Below, one piece after another: positions 14,653 to 60,158 of a stretch of 61,443 nucleotides of DNA. How positions within the stretch are numbered: the first letter of the stretch is position 1; the number at the start of each line of letters is the position of its first letter. Origin of the DNA: a virus; IMG/VR virus record IMGVR_UViG_3300043399_000848, positions 1 through 61,443 of that record, one strand, 5' to 3'. A program made the translations under genes and the position numbers. The notes beneath the pieces were generated by a model. That model had not been told where the DNA came from, did no database searches, and worked only from the letters and a program-made list of their open reading frames with translations.

Positions 14653-14937
14653 ATGCCCGCGGACTTCGCCGACACCGGATCTCAGCGACGCAAGCTGACC
14701 TTCGACCCGACGATCAACCTCGGGCACATCCTCACCGCGGCCGCGATGTTGGCCAGCGGAATCGCAGCATACAACACGCTCGACAAGCGCGTGGCCGTGA
14801 TCGAGGTCCAGCACACCGCGGCCAAGGAGCACCAGGCGCTGAAAGACTCGTCCCAGGATCTGATGCTGCGAGAGTCCGTGCTGAGGATCCAGGAGACCCT
14901 GACCCGGCTCGATCAAGAACGAAGGAGCACCAAGTGA
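14653..14937 (+). CDS. Single-pass membrane protein, holin candidate
   Basis: This is a 94-aa protein with one hydrophobic stretch at about 22-41, then a charged helical C-terminus with heptad spacing. GTGAGG lies five bases before ATG 14653; ATG 14650 is an alternative. The topology resembles XhlA-like or single-pass holin accessory proteins. It immediately precedes and overlaps the endolysin gene, supporting a lysis role. Confidence 0.6.
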   Translation: MPADFADTGSQRRKLTFDPTINLGHILTAAAMLASGIAAYNTLDKRVAVIEVQHTAAKEHQALKDSSQDLMLRESVLRIQETLTRLDQERRSTK

Positions 14938-15710
14938 TGCACCCGATCGTCGAAGAGGCCCGCCCGTCGCTGGTCAAGCTCCTCAAGCGTGAGGAGGGGC
15001 TGCGCCTCAAGCCGTACCTTTGCAGCGCTGGCGTGCCCACGATTGGCGTCGGCGCAACGACCTACCCTGACGGCACGCCCGTCCGGCTGAGCGATCCGCC
15101 GATCACCGAGAAGATGGCCATGCAGATGCTGGCCGTCGAGGCTGACCGTTACATGCAGTCGGTCCTGGAAGTGTGCAAGGTATGGCCGACCGTCAACCAG
15201 CTCTGCGCGATGGCGAGCCTGGCGTACAACATCGGCGTGGCCGGGTTCAAGGGTTCGAGCGTCGCTCGCCTGCACAACCGTGGCGACCACGAAGGCGCCG
15301 CTCGCGCATTCAACCTGTGGAACCAGGCCACGGTCAAAGGGCGTCGTCAGGTTCTTCCGGGTCTCGTCGCGCGTCGGGCCCGCGAGGCGGCCCTCTACCT
15401 GACCCCTTCCGACGACGAGCAGGTCGTCCCCGTTCCGCAGGCGGTGGCCTCTGAGTCGAGGCTGGCCGCGTCCCCGATCGCAGCCAGCGGAGCCTCGGTC
15501 ACGATCGGCGGCACCGCTCTCGGTTTCGCACCCGCACTGGACGGCCTGCAGCAGGCCTCGCAGGCGGTGGACACGAGCACCGGCATGCTGGCCAAGATCA
15601 AGGACACGACGATGATGCACCCGTCGGTGATCCTCGGCGTTCTCCTGGTGATCGCTGGCGCGGTCATCGTCTGGCAGCGCTACAAGCAGCGCTCTGGCGG
15701 GTGGGCGTGA
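14934..15710 (+). CDS. GH24 endolysin (T4-type lysozyme) with C-terminal membrane anchor
   Basis: This is a 258-aa muramidase that cleaves the glycan strands of peptidoglycan. The catalytic triad has the GH24 spacing E-x8-C-x5-T at E21, C30 and T36, with Cys in the place usually held by Asp, a known variant. The lysozyme domain covers about 8-165, followed by a Pro/Ala/Ser linker. A hydrophobic segment at about 231-247 comes before a basic tail, which would tether the enzyme to the inner membrane. AAGGAG lies six bases before GTG 14934; ATG 14937 is an alternative. Neighbours are holin-like and spanin genes. Confidence 0.9.
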   Translation: MMHPIVEEARPSLVKLLKREEGLRLKPYLCSAGVPTIGVGATTYPDGTPVRLSDPPITEKMAMQMLAVEADRYMQSVLEVCKVWPTVNQLCAMASLAYNIGVAGFKGSSVARLHNRGDHEGAARAFNLWNQATVKGRRQVLPGLVARRAREAALYLTPSDDEQVVPVPQAVASESRLAASPIAASGASVTIGGTALGFAPALDGLQQASQAVDTSTGMLAKIKDTTMMHPSVILGVLLVIAGAVIVWQRYKQRSGGWA

Positions 15711-15901: not shown

Positions 15902-16263
15902 TACCCGCAGCAGCCCTGCCGTATTTCTTCGCCGCGGCTCTTGTTGCGGCGGGGATGGCTTACGTGCAGGGCCGAAGGGATGGCCGCGAGCTGGAGACCG
16001 CACGTGCAGCACGTGAGCACCAGATCGCGGTCATGGCCGTGGACAAGGCTTCGAGCGCTGCCGCGGCCGCGATCAGAGAGATCAAGGTCACCAACACCAC
16101 CATCAAGCAGAGGGTCGAGCGTGAGATTCAAACTCGTGTTGAGTACCGCGACTGCCGCCATGCTCCTGGGGTGCTCGACGACATCAACGAAACCCTCACC
16201 GGCAAACGGCCCAAGCCCCCTGGTGGTGGCGTCGTGCCCTCCGCTAACCCCACTGGACGATGA
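15898..16263 (+). CDS. Rz: i-spanin (Rz)
   Basis: This is a 121-aa inner-membrane spanin. The TTG start overlaps the preceding stop as TTGA. An N-terminal signal anchor (about 4-22) is followed by a charged coiled coil (about 28-95). A C-terminal YRDCRHAPGVLDDIN segment is typical of Rz periplasmic domains and contains a Cys. Rz pairs with the outer-membrane lipoprotein Rz1, encoded in the next frame, to fuse inner and outer membranes at the end of lysis. This implies a Gram-negative host. Confidence 0.85.
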   Translation: MIPAAALPYFFAAALVAAGMAYVQGRRDGRELETARAAREHQIAVMAVDKASSAAAAAIREIKVTNTTIKQRVEREIQTRVEYRDCRHAPGVLDDINETLTGKRPKPPGGGVVPSANPTGR

Positions 16264-42990: not shown

Positions 42991-43713
42991 TTACTCCAAC
43001 GAGATCAGGTACGCGGCCGCCTCCTCGGCGGTGCTGACCTGTCGGATCGAGACCCCGAACAGGTTCTTGGCCGTCTCCAGGGTGCCGTTGTAGTCGACCA
43101 CGTCTTTGGACCACACGACGAGGTGCTTCGAGAACGCCTGCGCCAGGGCTCGCTCATAGAGCAGGAGCCTGCCCATGTGGAAAGTGAGCGAGTCGATCGA
43201 CGAATTGCCCGTGTAGCAGCACATCGTCTTCCCGTGCTTATACCTCACCCGCATCGGGAACGGATGTGAGGACACCTCCACGTCGAAGCAGCCCTCGTGC
43301 TCAGGGTTGGTCTGCACCAGGTGGTACTCGACGGCACGCCAGAACGTCTCCTCGGCACGTGTCGGGCGGTCCGTTGCGCGACGCAGGGGGTGACCCAGGA
43401 AGGTGCCAGAGTGGCCTGCGTGAGTGGGCCCTAGAGCAGGCGCAGCCTGCGGGCCCGTGGACGACACGACTCCGATCTTCCACACGTCACCCGGGTCCGC
43501 GGCGTCGTTCATCAACCACTCGATCGGGACCCTCGTCAGGCGGGATACGGCCATCACCTGTTCGGCACTGGGGCGCGACCGGGAGTTGGGGTCCTTGGAC
43601 TCGAAGAAAGCGTAACCGCTGCGGGTGATCCCGCATGCGGCAGCGAGCTGGGCCTGGGTCATGTCAGCGAAACGCCTGGCGGCCCTCAGGCGCTCCCACA
43701 GTTGGCTTGCCAT
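42991..43713 (-). CDS. XRE-family repressor (lysogeny regulator) without S24 peptidase
   Basis: This is a 240-aa protein. The N-terminal helix-turn-helix (about 5-70) contains MTQAQLAAACGITRSGYAFFE and a region ending VPIEWLMND. The C-terminal half (about 120-240) lacks the Ser/Lys dyad of LexA/CI-type S24 domains. It has a compact alpha/beta sequence with DVEVSSHPFPMRVRYKHGKT, perhaps a nuclease-like or ligand-sensing fold. It is located between divergent operons, as expected for a CI analogue. Induction may therefore not be RecA-type self-cleavage. GTG 43722 is an alternative start; neither has a strong ribosome site. Confidence 0.82.
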   Translation of the reverse strand: MASQLWERLRAARRFADMTQAQLAAACGITRSGYAFFESKDPNSRSRPSAEQVMAVSRLTRVPIEWLMNDAADPGDVWKIGVVSSTGPQAAPALGPTHAGHSGTFLGHPLRRATDRPTRAEETFWRAVEYHLVQTNPEHEGCFDVEVSSHPFPMRVRYKHGKTMCCYTGNSSIDSLTFHMGRLLLYERALAQAFSKHLVVWSKDVVDYNGTLETAKNLFGVSIRQVSTAEEAAAYLISLE

Positions 43714-44570: not shown

Positions 44571-44717
44571 ATGAAGCGAATCGACCCCGAGCAGCCGCCC
44601 TATGTCGAGGACAGCACTCGCACGTGCGTGGGCCTGAGGATCGTCCTCGCGGCAGCGATCGTGTGGATGCTCGCCGTCGCTGCGGTGATCGTCGTCGCCA
44701 CGGGGAGCGGCGCGTGA
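44571..44717 (+). CDS. Tiny single-pass membrane protein (48 aa)
   Basis: ATG 44571 is preceded by AAAAGGAG at six bases, one of the best ribosome sites in the window. The product has a 20-residue soluble N-terminus (MKRIDPEQPPYVEDS...) and a transmembrane segment at about 22-44. The stop overlaps the GTG of the PEP-CTERM gene as GTGA, so the two are translationally coupled and may work together at the membrane. Confidence 0.8.
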   Translation: MKRIDPEQPPYVEDSTRTCVGLRIVLAAAIVWMLAVAAVIVVATGSGA

Positions 44718-45337
44718 TCGCATCCGCGGCCCTCGCCGCAGCAGTGGCCACGTGCAGCTGGGACAGGCCCGGCCTAGACCCGTTCATGGGCGACGTCGTG
44801 TCCGCGGTTGACCGCTACACGGACATCCCCGCCGACGTCAGGGCCACGCTCAAGGCGCGCATGTTCGCTCGCCAGTACGACGAGGTGGCGGAGATCACGC
44901 GTGACGAGATCAGGGGCGAGTTCCTGTACGACAACCTACGCGACATGCACTTCGGGGACGGCCGCATCTGCCGGCGCGTCTCGCGCAACTGGCCCTCCGG
45001 GCTGGTCGAGCGCGGCCTCGTGTACTGCGAGGAGGGCCACTGCCTGATCGTGCCCACGGTCTGCCGCAACGTGTCCCGCATCACCCGCGTGAGCCGCGCG
45101 CAGCGCTCCGAGGAGCTGCCTGAGATCCGCATCGAGATCCCCGGTGGCCCCGGAGGTGGCGGGCAGAGCCTGACCTTCGCGCCCCTGGAGACCGATGAGA
45201 GGCACCAGCCGGTGCCGCCCCTGCCGCCCATGCGTGGCGGCTTCACAGAGCCGATCCCCGAGCCCAGCACCTGGGCGCTGTTCCTGATGGGGATCCTGAT
45301 GTTGATGATTTCAGTGAAGAAAGGATGGGAGAAGTGA
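44714..45337 (+). CDS. PEP-CTERM surface protein, MHFG-type
   Basis: This is a 207-aa exported protein. A hydrophobic N-terminal signal (about 1-13, likely cleavage near AVA) is followed by an ectodomain with RDMHFGDGRICRRVSR (MHFG at 78-81) and two Cys-rich segments. A Pro/Gly-rich linker precedes the C-terminal sorting signal: PEPSTWA from 182, a hydrophobic span at about 189-201, then KKGWEK. PEP-CTERM tails are recognised by exosortase, which cleaves and anchors the protein at the surface or releases it. The MHFG pattern matches a PEP-CTERM family I recall from proteobacteria. It uses the host's exosortase, since none is visible here. Confidence 0.82.
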   Translation: MIASAALAAAVATCSWDRPGLDPFMGDVVSAVDRYTDIPADVRATLKARMFARQYDEVAEITRDEIRGEFLYDNLRDMHFGDGRICRRVSRNWPSGLVERGLVYCEEGHCLIVPTVCRNVSRITRVSRAQRSEELPEIRIEIPGGPGGGGQSLTFAPLETDERHQPVPPLPPMRGGFTEPIPEPSTWALFLMGILMLMISVKKGWEK

Positions 45338-45846
45338 AGAACGTAACTGAAAACGCCAAGGTCTACGGCAACGCTCGGGTCTACGACGACGCTCGGGTCT
45401 ACGGCGACGCTCGGGTCTACGGCAACGCTCAGGTCTCCGGCAACGCTCAGGTCTACGGCGACGCTCTGGTCTACGGCGACGCTCTGGTCTACGGCGACGC
45501 TCTGGTCTACGGCGGCGCTGAGGTCTCCGGCAACGCTCAGGTCTACAACAACGCTCAGGTCTACGGCGACGCTCGGGTCTCCGGCAACGCTCTGGTCTAC
45601 GGCGACGCAGTGATCGAGAAGACCAGCGACTACCTCGTCATCGGCCCAGCCAAGTCGAGCGGGCGCTTCACCACGGCGCACCGCGACAGCAAGATCGGCG
45701 TGCGGGTCAACTGCGGGTGCTTCACAGGCACGGTGCGGGAGTTCAGCGCGGCAATCGAGGAGACGCACAAGAACAACCGCGAGGCGCTGGAGCAGTACCG
45801 TCTGTTCTGCCAACTGATCGCATTCAACTTTGGAGTGACGGAATGA
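45334..45846 (+). CDS. Left-handed beta-helix hexapeptide-repeat protein
   Basis: This is a 170-aa protein with a GTG start overlapping the PEP-CTERM stop (ATG 45325 is an alternative). Fourteen consecutive hexapeptides of type VYGDAR or VSGNAQ (about 6-92) would form a four-to-five-turn left-handed beta-helix. A C-terminal cap (about 93-170) contains Cys and charged helices (EETHKNNREALEQY). There is no acyltransferase catalytic His in the repeats, so a structural or binding role is more likely. Close coupling to the surface protein gene is notable. Confidence 0.8.
   Translation: MKNVTENAKVYGNARVYDDARVYGDARVYGNAQVSGNAQVYGDALVYGDALVYGDALVYGGAEVSGNAQVYNNAQVYGDARVSGNALVYGDAVIEKTSDYLVIGPAKSSGRFTTAHRDSKIGVRVNCGCFTGTVREFSAAIEETHKNNREALEQYRLFCQLIAFNFGVTE
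45358..45609 (+). repeat. Fourteen 18-bp tandem repeats
   Basis: Units of 18 bp around GTCTACGGCGACGCTCGG run without interruption from 45358 to 45609. Several adjacent units are identical (45466-45519 region). Copy changes would keep the frame and add or remove a third of a beta-helix turn. Confidence 0.92.
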
Positions 45847-46205
45847 AAGAACAACCCGAAGCCCTGTGGCTGGCCGATGCTCTTGAGGGCCGCGCCACGA
45901 GGGCGTGGACAAGAGAGCAAGTCGCAGCCAGACTGCGCCGGTTGCACGCCCTAGTCGCCGCATGCGAGCCGTACCTGAAGGAGGGCGAGACCCCCGCCGA
46001 ACGCATCGAGCGTGAGCGCCTAGACACGGAGGCTGTGTGTCGGCTGTACGCCAAGGAGCGGGAGAAGAATGTCAAGCTGCTGGAGGCGTTGCGCCCGTTC
46101 GCCTCGGCCACGCTCACGGATGGCGGCGCCATCGTCGGTCTGATGCGAGAAGATTTCGAGCGGGCCCGCGCCGCCATCGCCAAGGCGGAAGGAGAGAAGG
46201 AATGA
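45843..46205 (+). CDS. Small helical accessory protein
   Basis: This is a 120-aa, charged, largely helical protein. The ATG overlaps the preceding stop. The C-terminus ends in RAAIAKAEGEKE, almost the same ending as the next gene (RAAIAKAEGQA), with near-identical DNA. It is the first member of a run of small genes that share termini. Function is unknown. Confidence 0.65.
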   Translation: MKEQPEALWLADALEGRATRAWTREQVAARLRRLHALVAACEPYLKEGETPAERIERERLDTEAVCRLYAKEREKNVKLLEALRPFASATLTDGGAIVGLMREDFERARAAIAKAEGEKE

Positions 46206-46477
46206 GCAAGCACACACCGGGGCCGTGGAAACTAGAGCGTAAAAGCGTTCTTATTCCCGTTGCCCCCCACGAATGGGCAGAAGCATACGGAGGTTCAGAG
46301 GCCAACGCCCGCCTGATCGCGGCTGCGCCTGAACTGCTGGAGGCGTTGAAGAACTTGGAAAAAGAGTTCCGCAAGGTCTACCCGATTTACTACTACGCAG
46401 AGCCTTGGGGCCACGAAACCAATGTTCCGCTGCAAGCGGCACGCGCCGCCATCGCCAAGGCGGAGGGGCAAGCATGA
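46202..46477 (+). CDS. HTPGPW-type small phage protein
   Basis: This is a 91-aa protein. It begins SKHTPGPWKLE and has ANARLIAAAPELLEALKNL, a pattern very common in small phage proteins of unknown function. It ends with the shared AAIAKAEG cassette. Coupled to neighbours by four-base overlaps. Confidence 0.72.
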   Translation: MSKHTPGPWKLERKSVLIPVAPHEWAEAYGGSEANARLIAAAPELLEALKNLEKEFRKVYPIYYYAEPWGHETNVPLQAARAAIAKAEGQA

Positions 46478-46728
46478 CCCCCGACGACATCACCCGCTTC
46501 GCGCGGGAGGCGGGCCTGCCGATGGCCTGGATAAGCAAAACGGGCTTGCTCAAGTGGTCGGAACTTGAGCGCTTCGCCGCCCTGGCCTACGAGGCCGGTG
46601 CCGCTGCGGAGCGTGAGGCGTGTGCGAAGGTGTGTGAACAGACTGACGAAGACGGAGAAGGTCCAGACTGCTGGGGCTGGCACGCAAAGGACTACGCGAA
46701 AGCGATCCGAGCAAGGAGCAAGGAATGA
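46474..46728 (+). CDS. Tandem paralogue 1 (DITRFAREA ... RARSKE)
   Basis: This is an 84-aa protein with an N-terminal helix DDITRFAREAG, a central ELERFAALAYEAGAAAEREACAKVC segment and the C-terminus AIRARSKE. The two following genes share the same layout, so the three arose by tandem duplication. The codons for RARSKE include AGGAG, which can serve as ribosome site for the next gene. Confidence 0.7.
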   Translation: MTPDDITRFAREAGLPMAWISKTGLLKWSELERFAALAYEAGAAAEREACAKVCEQTDEDGEGPDCWGWHAKDYAKAIRARSKE

Positions 46729-47009
46729 AAACCGAAGACATCATCCGCATGGCGCGGGAGGCGAACCTCGGCAACGTGCTGTGCCACAACAGCGTCGAGG
46801 GCGACCGCGTGTTCATCGAGGGCGCCGATTGGCACGACGAGGTAGAGCGCTTCGCTGCTCTCGTCGCCGCTGCGGAGAGTGAGCGTTGGAGCCGACTGCT
46901 GGAGGACCGAGCCGCCGCGTGCGAACGCGCTGCCGAGAACACCGGTGACCCGAAGTACGACTCTATCGCTCGCACGCTGATGAGCGTGCGTCAGGAGGGA
47001 CTGAAATGA
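46725..47009 (+). CDS. Tandem paralogue 2
   Basis: This is a 94-aa protein with EDIIRMAREANLG at the N-terminus and EVERFAALVAAAESERW in the middle, clearly related to both neighbours. The C-terminal part has diverged (ARTLMSVRQEGLK) and lost the RARSKE ending. The ATG overlaps the upstream TGA. Confidence 0.7.
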   Translation: MKTEDIIRMAREANLGNVLCHNSVEGDRVFIEGADWHDEVERFAALVAAAESERWSRLLEDRAAACERAAENTGDPKYDSIARTLMSVRQEGLK

Positions 47010-47293
47010 CCCCCGAAGACATCATCCGCCTCGCGCGGGAGGCGCATCGCCGCGTTGTGACCGATGACTACCCGGGGCACACGGGTCAGCTTGACGCGTG
47101 GACGCTGGCGCTGCTTGAGCGCTTCGCCGCGCTCGTCGCCGCTGCGGAGCGCGAAGCGTGTGCGAAGGTGTGCGATGACATCAGCGAGGAATACTGCCAG
47201 CGCGAAGGGAAGCGCCTCCCAAGCCTGAGAACTGACGCAGAGAGTGGTGCTGGTGACTGCGCTGAAGCCATTCGCGCAAGGAGCAAAGAATGA
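47006..47293 (+). CDS. Tandem paralogue 3
   Basis: This is a 95-aa protein with EDIIRLAREAH, LLERFAALVAAAEREACAKVC and the terminal AEAIRARSKE, closest to paralogue 1 at its C-terminus and to paralogue 2 at its N-terminus. This suggests recombination among copies. Function is unknown. Confidence 0.7.
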   Translation: MTPEDIIRLAREAHRRVVTDDYPGHTGQLDAWTLALLERFAALVAAAEREACAKVCDDISEEYCQREGKRLPSLRTDAESGAGDCAEAIRARSKE

Positions 47294-47553
47294 CCGACAC
47301 ACGTACCGTCCCCGCCGCGCAGAAGACACACGACTACACGCGGCGCACATGGGGCCACGACTACGCCACGATGGCGGTGATTGACGGCGGTCGGCGGTTG
47401 CGCCTCAGCGGCTGGGGCCACGGCATCAAGGTTGGCGACTACCTGATTCTGCCGAACGGCAACGGGACGACACGCTACCGCGTGGACAGTATCGACTACC
47501 GCATGGACCCGCCGGACATGTGGTTTGCAGAGGCCACGTTCGCACCGCGATGA
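47290..47553 (+). CDS. Small beta-rich protein of the accessory array
   Basis: This is an 87-aa protein starting MTDTRTVPA. The next gene starts MSDLRTVPV, so the two share an N-terminal cassette. The rest is a small beta fold with GIKVGDYLILPNGNGTTRYRV, like an OB or SH3-type barrel. No family is assigned. Confidence 0.68.
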   Translation: MTDTRTVPAAQKTHDYTRRTWGHDYATMAVIDGGRRLRLSGWGHGIKVGDYLILPNGNGTTRYRVDSIDYRMDPPDMWFAEATFAPR

Positions 47554-47565
47554 AGGAGAAGAACC

Positions 47566-48030
47566 ATGAGTGACCTGAGAACCGTCCCCGTGGAGCTGCT
47601 GCAGCAGGCGCTGGAGGCGTTGGATAACTGCACCAGCGAACACGGTCACAGGTGTAATCGCTGCGACAGTGAAGTGGACGAAGGTGGTCGAGTCATCGCC
47701 GCCCTCCGCGTCGCGCTGGAGCAGCCCAGCCCCGTCTTTCAAGACCATTCGATCCCGCTCGGGCGCCGCACGCAGGAGCAGCCGATTCAGCCGGTGGCGT
47801 GGCTGACCGACAGACAAACGATGTACTTCGACAAGGAAGACGCGCGGCGCGATTGCGACGGGTTCATTCAACCTCTCGACACCCACCCACCCCGCCGCGA
47901 GTGGCAGGGGCTGACGGAGGAGGAGATTGATTCTTTCATGCCCTACTGCCACAACGAATTTGACTTGGCCGAATTCAAAGACTTCGCCCGCGCTATCGAG
48001 GCCGCGCTGAAGGAGAAGAACCATGAATGA
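47566..48030 (+). CDS. Conserved small phage protein
   Basis: This is a 154-aa protein. The N-terminal helix ELLQQALEALDNC and CNRCDSE are followed by VAWLTDRQTMYFDKEDA, a pattern frequent in phage-encoded proteins of unknown role, and a C-terminal ARAIEAALKEKN. AAGGAGAAG precedes the ATG. Its stop region overlaps the next ATG, with the same GGAGAAGAACC sequence before both genes. Confidence 0.68.
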   Translation: MSDLRTVPVELLQQALEALDNCTSEHGHRCNRCDSEVDEGGRVIAALRVALEQPSPVFQDHSIPLGRRTQEQPIQPVAWLTDRQTMYFDKEDARRDCDGFIQPLDTHPPRREWQGLTEEEIDSFMPYCHNEFDLAEFKDFARAIEAALKEKNHE

Positions 48031-48370
48031 AAACCTCACCGTGAATTCAGACCGCGTACCTTTTGTCGCGGTTGCGAACGACGAAATCTGCCGGATCAAT
48101 GCGGACGGCACCGCAACCTACCAATGGGACCGCATCGAAACTGCGGCGCAGCGGTGGGAGCCGGGGTGCGAAAACATCGCGCTATGTCTGGCAAAGTTGC
48201 TGTTGCCGCTGCGCCCCCACGCCGAGCCCCCGCCCAAGCCGATCCACGGCACGAAAATCCACGCGGAATTCCAGGATCTCGACCGGCACACGTTGCCCGG
48301 TGAGATGACCATCGAAGACTGGTTCGAGGCCGGCGTGCGGTACGCGGAGCGACAGCATGCCCAACAGTGA
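48023..48370 (+). CDS. Small hypothetical protein
   Basis: This is a 115-aa protein. GGAGAAG lies six bases before the ATG. The N-terminal half is beta (VPFVAVANDEICRINADGTA) and the C-terminal half is helical after a Pro-rich stretch (EPPPKPIHG). No domain is recognised. Confidence 0.65.
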   Translation: MNENLTVNSDRVPFVAVANDEICRINADGTATYQWDRIETAAQRWEPGCENIALCLAKLLLPLRPHAEPPPKPIHGTKIHAEFQDLDRHTLPGEMTIEDWFEAGVRYAERQHAQQ

Positions 48371-48695
48371 CTACACCCTACCCTCGTCCGACTGGGTCCC
48401 GTCCCGGTTCGAGTTCGAGCAGCAGCGACAGCGGGCCTGGCGCGAGCTGAGGACCGGCGGCGCGCAGCGGTGCGCGTCGGGGCGCGTCCTCCCGTGGCCA
48501 ATCCGCAACGGCCAGCGTCAGCGTCCGGTAGCGTCCGATGAAGAGCGGCAGCGTCCGAGGAGGGCCGCCTCGCTGATCCAGGTCGTGCGCCAGCGGGTCA
48601 ATTGGGACAGCCTGGCCGTGACAGCGATCGTCCTGTCGGCGATCATCTGGCTATGGGTAGTCGGCTCGCTCCTGTATCGATTCGCCAGCTTGTGA
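48357..48695 (+). CDS. C-terminally anchored membrane protein
   Basis: This is a 112-aa protein overlapping the previous gene by 14 bases. A Gln/Arg-rich soluble region (1-80), partly encoded by repeated CAGCGTCCG units, is followed by a hydrophobic C-terminal span at about 86-106. It is the last gene of the small-protein array. Function is unknown. Confidence 0.6.
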   Translation: MPNSDYTLPSSDWVPSRFEFEQQRQRAWRELRTGGAQRCASGRVLPWPIRNGQRQRPVASDEERQRPRRAASLIQVVRQRVNWDSLAVTAIVLSAIIWLWVVGSLLYRFASL

Positions 48696-57469: not shown

Positions 57470-57729
57470 TGGAAACGATCAAGAAGCTCTGGGATTACGC
57501 GTGCATCACGTGGCTGTCCCTGACGCCCAAGGCTCAGATCACGGTCCTCGTGGCCCTGTTCATCATGTTCTTCGCAGGCGCCGTGCTGGCCCAGGGCAAG
57601 ACCTGGCAAGTTCTGGAGCACGCGTGTGACAAGTCCGGCGCCGTGAACACGCTGGTCATTGCCGTGGCCGAGCCCGGCTTCGTGCAGATCAGCTGGGACA
57701 ATTCGTCGGTCTGCGGCAAGGCGTCGTGA
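57469..57729 (+). CDS. Membrane protein between small and large terminase genes
   Basis: This is an 86-aa protein, ATG overlapping the upstream TGA (TGATG). One transmembrane segment at about 24-42 (ITVLVALFIMFFAGAVLA) is followed by a periplasmic-type domain with two Cys. Its stop overlaps the terminase GTG (GTGA). A membrane gene inside the packaging operon is unusual. It might be a host-envelope or lysis-timing protein. Confidence 0.7.
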   Translation: METIKKLWDYACITWLSLTPKAQITVLVALFIMFFAGAVLAQGKTWQVLEHACDKSGAVNTLVIAVAEPGFVQISWDNSSVCGKAS

Positions 57730-60158
57730 CCGACCTGGCGTCACTGTCCACAGAAGAGAAGCTGGAACTTCTTCAGCTTCTGGAGATCCGCGACCGTCGC
57801 CAGCGCGAAAACATGCTGGCGTCGTACAAGCCGTACGCCAAGCAGAAGGAATTCCACAACGCAGGCGCCACGTACCGTGAACGCCTGTTCATGGCTGCTA
57901 ATCAGTGCTCAGGCCCGTGGACGTGGGTTGAAACGCCGGGCTCCAAGGCCCTGTCCGTAGATACGTTTTTCGAGCCAGGTGCACGTGTTCAAGCGTGGGA
58001 CGGTGAATCTCGATGTGTCGCTCCAGTGCGGCACGGATATCTGAAGGGCATTGAGAAAGCGTATCGTCTGGTCCTGGAGACGGGAGAGTTCTTTGACGTG
58101 ACGGCCAGTCACCAAGTGCTGACCGAACAAGGCTGGCTTTCGGTTTCCCGGATAGTGTCGCTTTCAAGTGGTCTGCGTTGCTGGCAAACAACCGAAGATT
58201 TTCTGGCCAGTTGTGTTGCGGGTGGCCGTCTACATGATCCACGACTTCCGCTGGATCCAGGTAGCGACCCAGCACGACTTCTAGAACGAGTCGGTGCTCG
58301 GGAACGTAGCCTGTGCTTCTCGCTTGAGGATGCAGAGGCGCGTACACGCTCACATACCAGCCTTTTGTCAGACAACGTCCTCCACCCCAACGCTGGCTGT
58401 GACCCGCGCCAGATCGAGGCCCTGTGCGCGCAGTTCGCAGGCCCAGCGATGAGCAGTAGCGTTCTACCGTTGACCGGTGAACACCAAGCCTTCTTGCAAC
58501 TTGCTCGTGTGTCTCACCTTCTTCCTCAATCAGGCGACGAACCTCGTCTCCTTTCTCTACCAGCAGACGTCCTGGTAGGAATTGTGGCTGGATGTTTCTC
58601 CTCTGAAGAAAAGACTGCACTACGTGAGTTTTCAGACCGAGTCGCTCGGCTATCTCTTGACGTGTCAGGCCCTGGGAGTTCCATTGAAGAACTTGGTCAA
58701 GATGCGGCTCGACTAGGGACGTTCTACCCATTTGATGGTCCTCGGCTGGTTGGTGGGAGGACGATCACTGCCGTCGTCCCGATTGGTTACCAGCCGATTC
58801 TAGACTGTCATGTGGACAGGGTCAATTGCTATTGGGCAGGCGGGGTGGTGCATCACAACAGCGGCAAGACGCTATCTGCTGCATACGAGATCGCGATCCA
58901 CGCCACCGGCCGCTACCCAGACTGGTGGCAAGGCCGCCGGTTCCACCGCCCGGTCAGCATCCTCGTCGGCTCGGAGTCTGGCGAACTGACCCGCAAGGGC
59001 CTGCAGCGCCTGATCGTGGGCTCGCCCCAGAAGCGGGAAGAGTGGGGCACTGGTGCGATCCCGAAGGAGTGCCTGGGCAACACGACGATGAAGCCCGGCG
59101 TGCCTGACGCGCTGGCCAGCGTGACTGTCAAGAACGAGTACGGCGGAGAGTCCGTCATCCAGTTCAACAGTTATGACCAAGGGCGCTCGAAGTGGCAGGC
59201 GGACACAATAGATATCGTTGCGATGGACGAAGAGCCTCCGATGGATATCTACACGGAGGCGCTGACTCGTACCAACGCGACGGGCGGTATCGTCTTCGTC
59301 ACGTTCACCCCGTTGCTGGGCATGTCCCAGGTGGTCAAGCGCTACCTGACGGAGAAGCCTGAGGGTACGACCGTCATCCGCATGACGATCGACGATGCGG
59401 AGCACTACACCCCCGAGGAGCGTGCGCGGATCATCGCCGCCTACCCCGAGCACGAGCGGGAGGCCCGGACGAAGGGCGTCCCGATGCTCGGCAGCGGCGC
59501 GGTGTTCCCCGTGGCCGAGTCCGCGATCAGCGTGGCACCGTTCGAGATCCCCGCCCATTGGGCACGGATCAACGGGATCGACTTCGGATGGGACCACCCG
59601 ACTGGCTTCGTCTGCATGGCCCACGACAGGGACACGGACACGGTCTACGTGTACGACGCCTGGAAGCTGAAGCAGACCCCCGTCATGACTCAGGCCGGGA
59701 TGGTCGTAGGCAAGGGGTACCAGAACATACCCTGGGCCTGGCCGCATGACGGCCTCCAGCATGACCGCAATTCCGGGGAGATCCTGAAGGACCAGTACCA
59801 GAAGTTCGGGATGAACATGATCTCGGAGAGGGCCCAGTTCGAGAACCGTCCCGACGGGAAGCCTGGTGGCAACAGCCTTGAGGCTGGTGTATCAATGATG
59901 CTGGAGAGAATGCAAACACGCAGACTACGCGTGTTTTCCAACTTGGAGGACTGGTTCTCGGAGTTCCGGCTGTACCACCGGAAGGAAGGGATCATCGTCA
60001 AGGAGGACGACGACATTCTGTCCGCGACGCGCTACGGGATCATGATGCTGCGCAAGGCGAAGACCTTGCTGGAGATGGAACCGAGCCGTGGCACTTTCAA
60101 CCGACCCGCTGCGAACCTGCCTGTTTTCCAGGTGTTCAACGCGGACTGTGCGTACTGA
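57726..60158 (+). CDS. terL: Large terminase subunit interrupted by an intein
   Basis: This is an 810-aa precursor; after removal of intein residues 61-378 the product is 492 aa, normal for a phage large terminase. Exteins join to give AANQ-SGKT, the Walker A loop. Walker B is VAMDEEPP near precursor 499. The nuclease domain begins near 617 with GIDFGWDHP and has further acids in DTVYVYDAW and DDDILSATRYG. The enzyme pumps and cuts DNA at the portal, whose gene follows. Activity would depend on splicing because the intein disrupts the ATP site. The GTG start overlaps the upstream stop. Confidence 0.93.
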   Translation: MTDLASLSTEEKLELLQLLEIRDRRQRENMLASYKPYAKQKEFHNAGATYRERLFMAANQCSGPWTWVETPGSKALSVDTFFEPGARVQAWDGESRCVAPVRHGYLKGIEKAYRLVLETGEFFDVTASHQVLTEQGWLSVSRIVSLSSGLRCWQTTEDFLASCVAGGRLHDPRLPLDPGSDPARLLERVGARERSLCFSLEDAEARTRSHTSLLSDNVLHPNAGCDPRQIEALCAQFAGPAMSSSVLPLTGEHQAFLQLARVSHLLPQSGDEPRLLSLPADVLVGIVAGCFSSEEKTALREFSDRVARLSLDVSGPGSSIEELGQDAARLGTFYPFDGPRLVGGRTITAVVPIGYQPILDCHVDRVNCYWAGGVVHHNSGKTLSAAYEIAIHATGRYPDWWQGRRFHRPVSILVGSESGELTRKGLQRLIVGSPQKREEWGTGAIPKECLGNTTMKPGVPDALASVTVKNEYGGESVIQFNSYDQGRSKWQADTIDIVAMDEEPPMDIYTEALTRTNATGGIVFVTFTPLLGMSQVVKRYLTEKPEGTTVIRMTIDDAEHYTPEERARIIAAYPEHEREARTKGVPMLGSGAVFPVAESAISVAPFEIPAHWARINGIDFGWDHPTGFVCMAHDRDTDTVYVYDAWKLKQTPVMTQAGMVVGKGYQNIPWAWPHDGLQHDRNSGEILKDQYQKFGMNMISERAQFENRPDGKPGGNSLEAGVSMMLERMQTRRLRVFSNLEDWFSEFRLYHRKEGIIVKEDDDILSATRYGIMMLRKAKTLLEMEPSRGTFNRPAANLPVFQVFNADCAY
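57898..58731 (-). CDS. Reverse-strand HNH homing endonuclease nested in the intein
   Basis: This is a 277-aa frame on the opposite strand of the terminase intein. Two helix-turn-helix segments come first: LTRQEIAERLGLKTHVVQSF (22-41) and ETHEQVARRLGVHRSTVERY (73-92). The HNH core follows: EHRLVLEVVLGRYL (145-158), VVDHVDGH with H166, NWPENLRL with N178, and NADH with H188. GAGGA lies seven bases before ATG 58731, with a sigma70 promoter further upstream. The last 70 or so codons are antisense to the N-splicing domain and the stop lies in extein DNA. It is presumably the nuclease that mobilises the intein; target cutting is inferred. Confidence 0.88.
   Translation of the reverse strand: MGRTSLVEPHLDQVLQWNSQGLTRQEIAERLGLKTHVVQSFLQRRNIQPQFLPGRLLVEKGDEVRRLIEEEGETHEQVARRLGVHRSTVERYCSSLGLRTARTGPRSGAGHSQRWGGGRCLTKGWYVSVYAPLHPQARSTGYVPEHRLVLEVVLGRYLDPAEVVDHVDGHPQHNWPENLRLFASNADHLKATLSGKPKASLVRSALGDWPSRQRTLPSPGPDDTLSQCPSDIRAALERHIEIHRPTLEHVHLARKTYLRTGPWSPAFQPTSTGLSTD
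57906..58859 (+). mobile_element. Intein in the terminase Walker A motif
   Basis: This is a 318-residue intein with C1 (C61 of the precursor), block B TxxH as TASH (126-129), and a C-terminal block ending GGVVHHN followed by Ser of the extein, so all nucleophiles are present. The N-splicing half is about residues 61-145 and the C half about 337-378. The roughly 190 residues between look like unstructured shadow of a reverse-strand gene, with no in-frame endonuclease motif. Base composition is visibly less GC-rich at third positions than the exteins, a sign of recent acquisition. Confidence 0.93.
58797..58825 (-). promoter_or_regulatory. Sigma70 promoter of the reverse HNH gene, inside intein codons
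   Basis: On the minus strand TTGACC (58820-58825) and TAGAAT (58797-58802) are exactly 17 bases apart, about 66 bases before ATG 58731. The spacer holds the inverted repeat CTGTC-ATGTG-GACAG (58805-58819). The same bases encode the C-terminal splicing block (QPILDCHVDRV) on the plus strand. With the GAGGA site it makes an independent expression cassette. Confidence 0.75.

Follow-up and report, generated by a model that had tools for sequence, protein, structure and literature searches.

A phage locus encoding an MHFG-family PEP-CTERM protein

The DNA analyzed here (the window) is a virus record of 61,443 bases that, judged by its gene content, represents a near-complete temperate phage. Its gene set includes those for a major capsid protein, a giant protein of 3,494 aa, lysis proteins, an integrase, a DNA polymerase, a CI-like repressor, a primase and a terminase, and the portal gene is divided between both ends of the record. 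Upstream of the primase gene lies an operon, divergent from the repressor gene, that contains a gene for a PEP-CTERM protein of the MHFG family (Table 1). This arrangement suggests that the MHFG gene would be expressed early in lytic growth rather than in the lysogen; a promoter scan found no promoter.

Table 1. Positions of features in the window and in related viral contigs (locus prefix given where outside the window)
Feature	Position	Strand	Basis or remark
Endolysin gene	14937-15710		Lysis cassette
Rz-like gene	15922-16263		Lysis cassette
CI-like repressor gene	42991..43713	-	PHROG repressor families, HTH_3
48-aa single-span ORF	44571..44717	+	4-nt overlap with the MHFG start; partnership not conserved
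MHFG family PEP-CTERM protein gene (207 aa, GTG start)	44714..45337	+	NF038119, 221 bits; TIGR02595, 21 bits; relatives L002-L044
Presumed minimal signal peptide: N-terminal 13 hydrophobic residues without K/R	44714..44752	+	Sequence and comparison with relatives; export inferred
MHFG core domain, five invariant cysteines	44753..45106	+	Alignment A3, 32 cores; model pLDDT 92.8
PEP-CTERM tail (PEP motif, hydrophobic span, basic end)	45254..45334	+	TIGR02595 match 45254-45322, E 7e-6; PEP invariant in 30 aligned relatives
YdcK-like beta-solenoid gene	45325-45846		18-nt tandem repeats
Run of short related genes	46202-48370		Also in other MHFG phages
Small proteins with W-x-P-[ST] start motif	48357-48695; L036:9000-9263; L038:8621-8902; L040:2762-2995		C-terminal membrane span
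Terminase large subunit frame	57726-60158		Intein-like insert
Tandem PEP-CTERM genes of the 369-kb contig	L063:3515-3742; L063:3746-4486	-	Unrelated to MHFG

The PEP-CTERM sequence is a tail tag by which Gram-negative bacteria place proteins outside the cell. The preliminary description had assigned the 207-aa product to the MHFG type, and a profile search bears this out: the match to NF038119 (PEP_CTERM_MHFG) scores 221.4 bits (E 2.5e-65; cut-off 100), making the protein a full member of the family, and both the MHFG motif and the conserved core cysteines are present in an alignment of 32 cores. At its C-terminus the protein possesses the arrangement found in PEP-CTERM substrates, consisting of a PEP motif, a strongly hydrophobic span and a basic end (PEPSTWALFLMGILMLMISVKKGWEK, with 3 K/R among the last 8 residues). 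This tail, which had been called textbook, passes the TIGR02595 cut-off of 16 with 21 bits; with Pfam PF07589 its score of 20.3 misses the gathering score of 20.7 by 0.4 bits, which indicates that the tail is real but modest. In a six-frame TIGR02595 search of the whole record the MHFG tail was the sole match. Moreover, all ten other core-bearing phage records searched end the same gene with a tail above the TIGR02595 cut-off, which argues that the tail is more than a chance resemblance; the sequence of L041 stops before its MHFG tail.

The N-terminus of the window protein is, as read from the sequence, not a textbook signal peptide, since it is unusually short and uncharged, and the invariant Cys14 follows directly after the 13 hydrophobic residues. 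Other phage members of the family likewise have a very short, uncharged N-terminus. The choice of start codon is backed by relatives that start at the same place, several of them with a start/stop overlap. In orthologues from Janthinobacterium and Rhizobacter, the N-terminus reads as an ordinary signal peptide, and we therefore take the MHFG core to be extracytoplasmic.

Two ORFs overlap the MHFG gene. The upstream ORF encodes a tiny membrane protein to which the MHFG gene had initially been described as coupled, a proposal we abandon because an extra ORF separates the two in the near-twin phage L002 and no relative of the 48-aa ORF occurs near the MHFG gene in any other MHFG phage. Downstream, a YdcK-like beta-solenoid gene built of 18-nt tandem repeats overlaps the MHFG gene end by 13 nt; its product differs in length from that of the near-twin (173 versus 191 aa).

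Conservation and predicted structure of the core

Most rows of the core alignment exhibit 61-93% identity, with 48% for L044. Relatives retain the five cysteines, the core and the PEP tripeptide but vary in the linker. An AlphaFold model of the core alone (pLDDT 92.8, pTM 0.87) contains two helices and six strands. Fold searches of the PDB with the full-length and core-alone models returned nothing convincing, with a best Z of 2.3 for both. When the full-length model was compared with a viral structure library, no named model matched convincingly, and one nameless entry, A0A1B0UZY4 (E 0.0035), may be distantly related. Metal_resist (PF13801) gave weak matches in 4 of 30 MHFG members, the best at 0.0014; PHROGs contained no family and PADLOC no match for the MHFG protein.

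Distribution among phages

The combination of MHFG core and PEP-CTERM tail recurs in L002 and in about eight further phage types (L003; L036; L037/L038; L039/L041; L040; L042; L004/L043, which carries a PurZ-like gene; and L044, a 369-kb contig with a terminase match). MHFG is the only gene recurring throughout these phages; its neighbours mostly differ, although it tends to sit amid early, recombination or nucleotide genes. Comparison of the window with L002 gives the MHFG gene a dS of 0.26, as opposed to 0 to 0.05 for two genes upstream of it, which indicates that the MHFG gene was probably exchanged by recombination, and a dN/dS of about 0.27 reveals purifying selection. No match to MHFG was found among 50,697 INPHARED phages (nothing even at E 10, with a sensitivity possibly below the stated limit) or among PLSDB plasmids. 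An unconstrained tree of the cores does not group all phage rows together; a single phage clade is nevertheless not rejected (p-AU 0.167), which leaves the direction of transfer unsettled.

None of the 11 phage records (the window and ten related ones) contains an exosortase gene, extending to the relatives what had been stated for the window. The presence of the same gene in many unrelated phages that have no sorting enzyme suggests that these phages use the surface-display machinery of their hosts.

Several other features of these genomes were observed in passing. The window contains a run of short related genes (DIIRxAREA...ERFAALVAAAEREACAKVC) that is also present in other MHFG phages. Several MHFG phages encode small proteins that have a W-x-P-[ST] motif at their start and a membrane span at their C-terminus, and a BLAST match among them was obtained between L036 and L038 only. 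In the window's terminase large subunit frame, about 300 extra aa follow the first ~60 residues and precede the Pfam terminase domain (residue 379 on); this insert opens with Cys and has an intein-like appearance.

Bacterial relatives and the predicted host

MHFG relatives were identified at 30 bacterial loci, nearly all from Burkholderiales. The loci read have ordinary chromosomal surroundings, with neighbours that, named from reading their sequences, include moaA/mobA and rmuC in Janthinobacterium, a response regulator and uvrA in Roseateles, and pyrF in Rubrivivax-like MAGs. The window protein resembles the members of NF038119 in its five-cysteine core, MHFG motif and tail type, but is encoded by a phage and has a shorter linker, whereas the bacterial copies are chromosomal. 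The family is rare, given that only the centre genome scored above the cut-off in a sample of 300 genomes from the order.

Of the 29 MHFG-bearing bacterial genomes, 26 encode an exosortase (PF09721), compared with 115 of the 300 sampled from the order (Fisher p 9e-8, a value that ignores kinship). Taken together, membership in the MHFG family, the PEP-CTERM tail and the absence of a phage exosortase suggest dependence on an exosortase-positive host. Virion genes provide a further indication. The window capsid protein has a counterpart of about 50% identity in G003, a MAG of the Burkholderiales with both MHFG and exosortase, and the contig encoding that counterpart has portal, tail and giant-protein genes in common with the window. 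In the Janthinobacterium genome G026, a prophage-like locus likewise has portal and capsid genes in common with the window. Because MAG contigs can be misbinned, these matches point to the order and are not proof; the phage host is probably an exosortase-bearing member of the Burkholderiales. The exosortase-positive host foreseen in the preliminary description is thus supported by the enrichment and by the related virion genes in such genomes.

A proposed route to the cell surface

We favor the interpretation, with a probability of roughly 0.7, that the MHFG gene of the window encodes a surface protein dependent on the exosortase of the host. Such a gene would be an early-region accessory gene of the temperate phage. 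Its product would be exported by the host Sec system and held by its PEP-CTERM tail in the inner membrane until host exosortase recognizes the PEP motif; the enzyme would then free the core, which would end up on the outer surface or in the layer of extracellular polysaccharide, in line with the release proposed for the PEP-CTERM/EpsH exosortase mechanism (PMC1569441). The PEP motif, span and basic C-terminal end that define that system (TIGR02595, PF09721; PMC1569441) are shared by the window protein, with the difference that here the substrate is viral and the host would have to supply the enzyme. Once released, the cysteine-rich MHFG core would act outside the cell, where its most likely role would be an early modification of the infected cell's surface. 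Counting against this interpretation are the very short N-terminus devoid of basic residues, which makes export the weakest step, and the narrow miss with PF07589.

A different possibility is that the tail serves as a plain C-terminal anchor, keeping a periplasmic protein at the inner membrane with no role for exosortase. In being hydrophobic and ending in basic residues, the tail resembles any stop-transfer anchor, and its PF07589 score lies just below the cut-off. However, 30 aligned relatives, phage and bacterial alike, all retain the PEP tripeptide, while the adjoining linker is free to vary, and exosortase is enriched in MHFG-bearing bacteria; we consider a simple anchor unlikely. The phage protein might instead mimic a host PEP-CTERM protein, occupying exosortase or replacing the host MHFG protein and so disturbing surface display by the host. 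Identity between the phage core and most host-type cores amounts to 61-69%, and a chromosomal version of MHFG exists in Burkholderiales, but simple competition for the enzyme would not call for such strong conservation of the core, and we judge a decoy function to be rather improbable. Finally, identification as a u-spanin, a lysis protein joining both membranes by an N-terminal lipoprotein signal and a C-terminal span, was dropped as highly improbable: the hydrophobic N-terminus does end in an invariant Cys, a C-terminal span is present and a loose lipobox fits 5 of 11 phage members, but it does not fit the window protein (VATC) or five other members, the Cys of the Janthinobacterium protein is located well downstream of an ordinary signal peptide, the gene is far from a separate cassette (14.9-16.3 kb) with its own endolysin and Rz-like genes, and a spanin does not need a PEP motif.

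For the exosortase-dependent surface protein that we favor, a first and speculative guess at function is that it blocks adsorption of, or otherwise excludes, further phages, which we regard as doubtful. The preliminary description had envisaged an altered surface in lysogens, through receptor masking, superinfection exclusion or biofilm change; with the MHFG gene divergent from the repressor gene, lysogenic conversion is conjectural, as are receptor masking and biofilm change. The superinfection exclusion proteins of temperate phages are small early or lysogeny-linked envelope proteins, and we know of none with a PEP-CTERM tail. A parallel in principle is provided by the prophage-encoded LPXTG surface proteins of Gram-positive bacteria, in which a phage product is displayed by a C-terminal sorting enzyme of the host. 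The two cases are alike in host sorting of a phage product; the enzyme, signal and envelope are unrelated.

Full-text literature searches, which covered mostly titles and abstracts and left subscription papers largely outside their scope, returned no report of phage-encoded PEP-CTERM proteins, and the founding PEP-CTERM paper (PMC1569441) does not mention phage. A phage-encoded PEP-CTERM protein is therefore likely to be new to the literature. If our interpretation is correct, phages take advantage of exosortase sorting, a pathway with biological roles that remain poorly known, and host range becomes predictable, because MHFG phages should be confined to exosortase-positive bacteria. The small phage protein would also offer a test substrate for exosortase, and exosortase mutants a test of phage fitness or exclusion.

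Other PEP-CTERM genes on viral contigs

A search of viral contigs with a DNA pattern for VPEPxTWA matched at least 120 stretches, and among the matches listed, 69 of 83 (80 loci) are C-terminal tails with a span and a basic end. Some of the remaining matches may represent host flanks of proviruses. Two other PEP-CTERM families recur, one in at least 15 viral contigs (L070, L082, L094, L115, L119 and ten more) and the other in at least 12 (L065, L111, L124, L128 and eight more), and some copies of these families adjoin portal, terminase, endolysin, tail-fibre or helicase genes. It is conceivable, although we place it somewhat short of an even chance, that phages of many lineages have repeatedly acquired exosortase-tagged proteins and remodel the Gram-negative surface through host exosortase during infection as a widespread habit; such repeated uptake would parallel the use of host sortase by Gram-positive prophages. 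The 369-kb contig that includes L044 also contains, at L063, a tandem pair of PEP-CTERM genes that are unrelated to MHFG and whose products have ordinary signal peptides.
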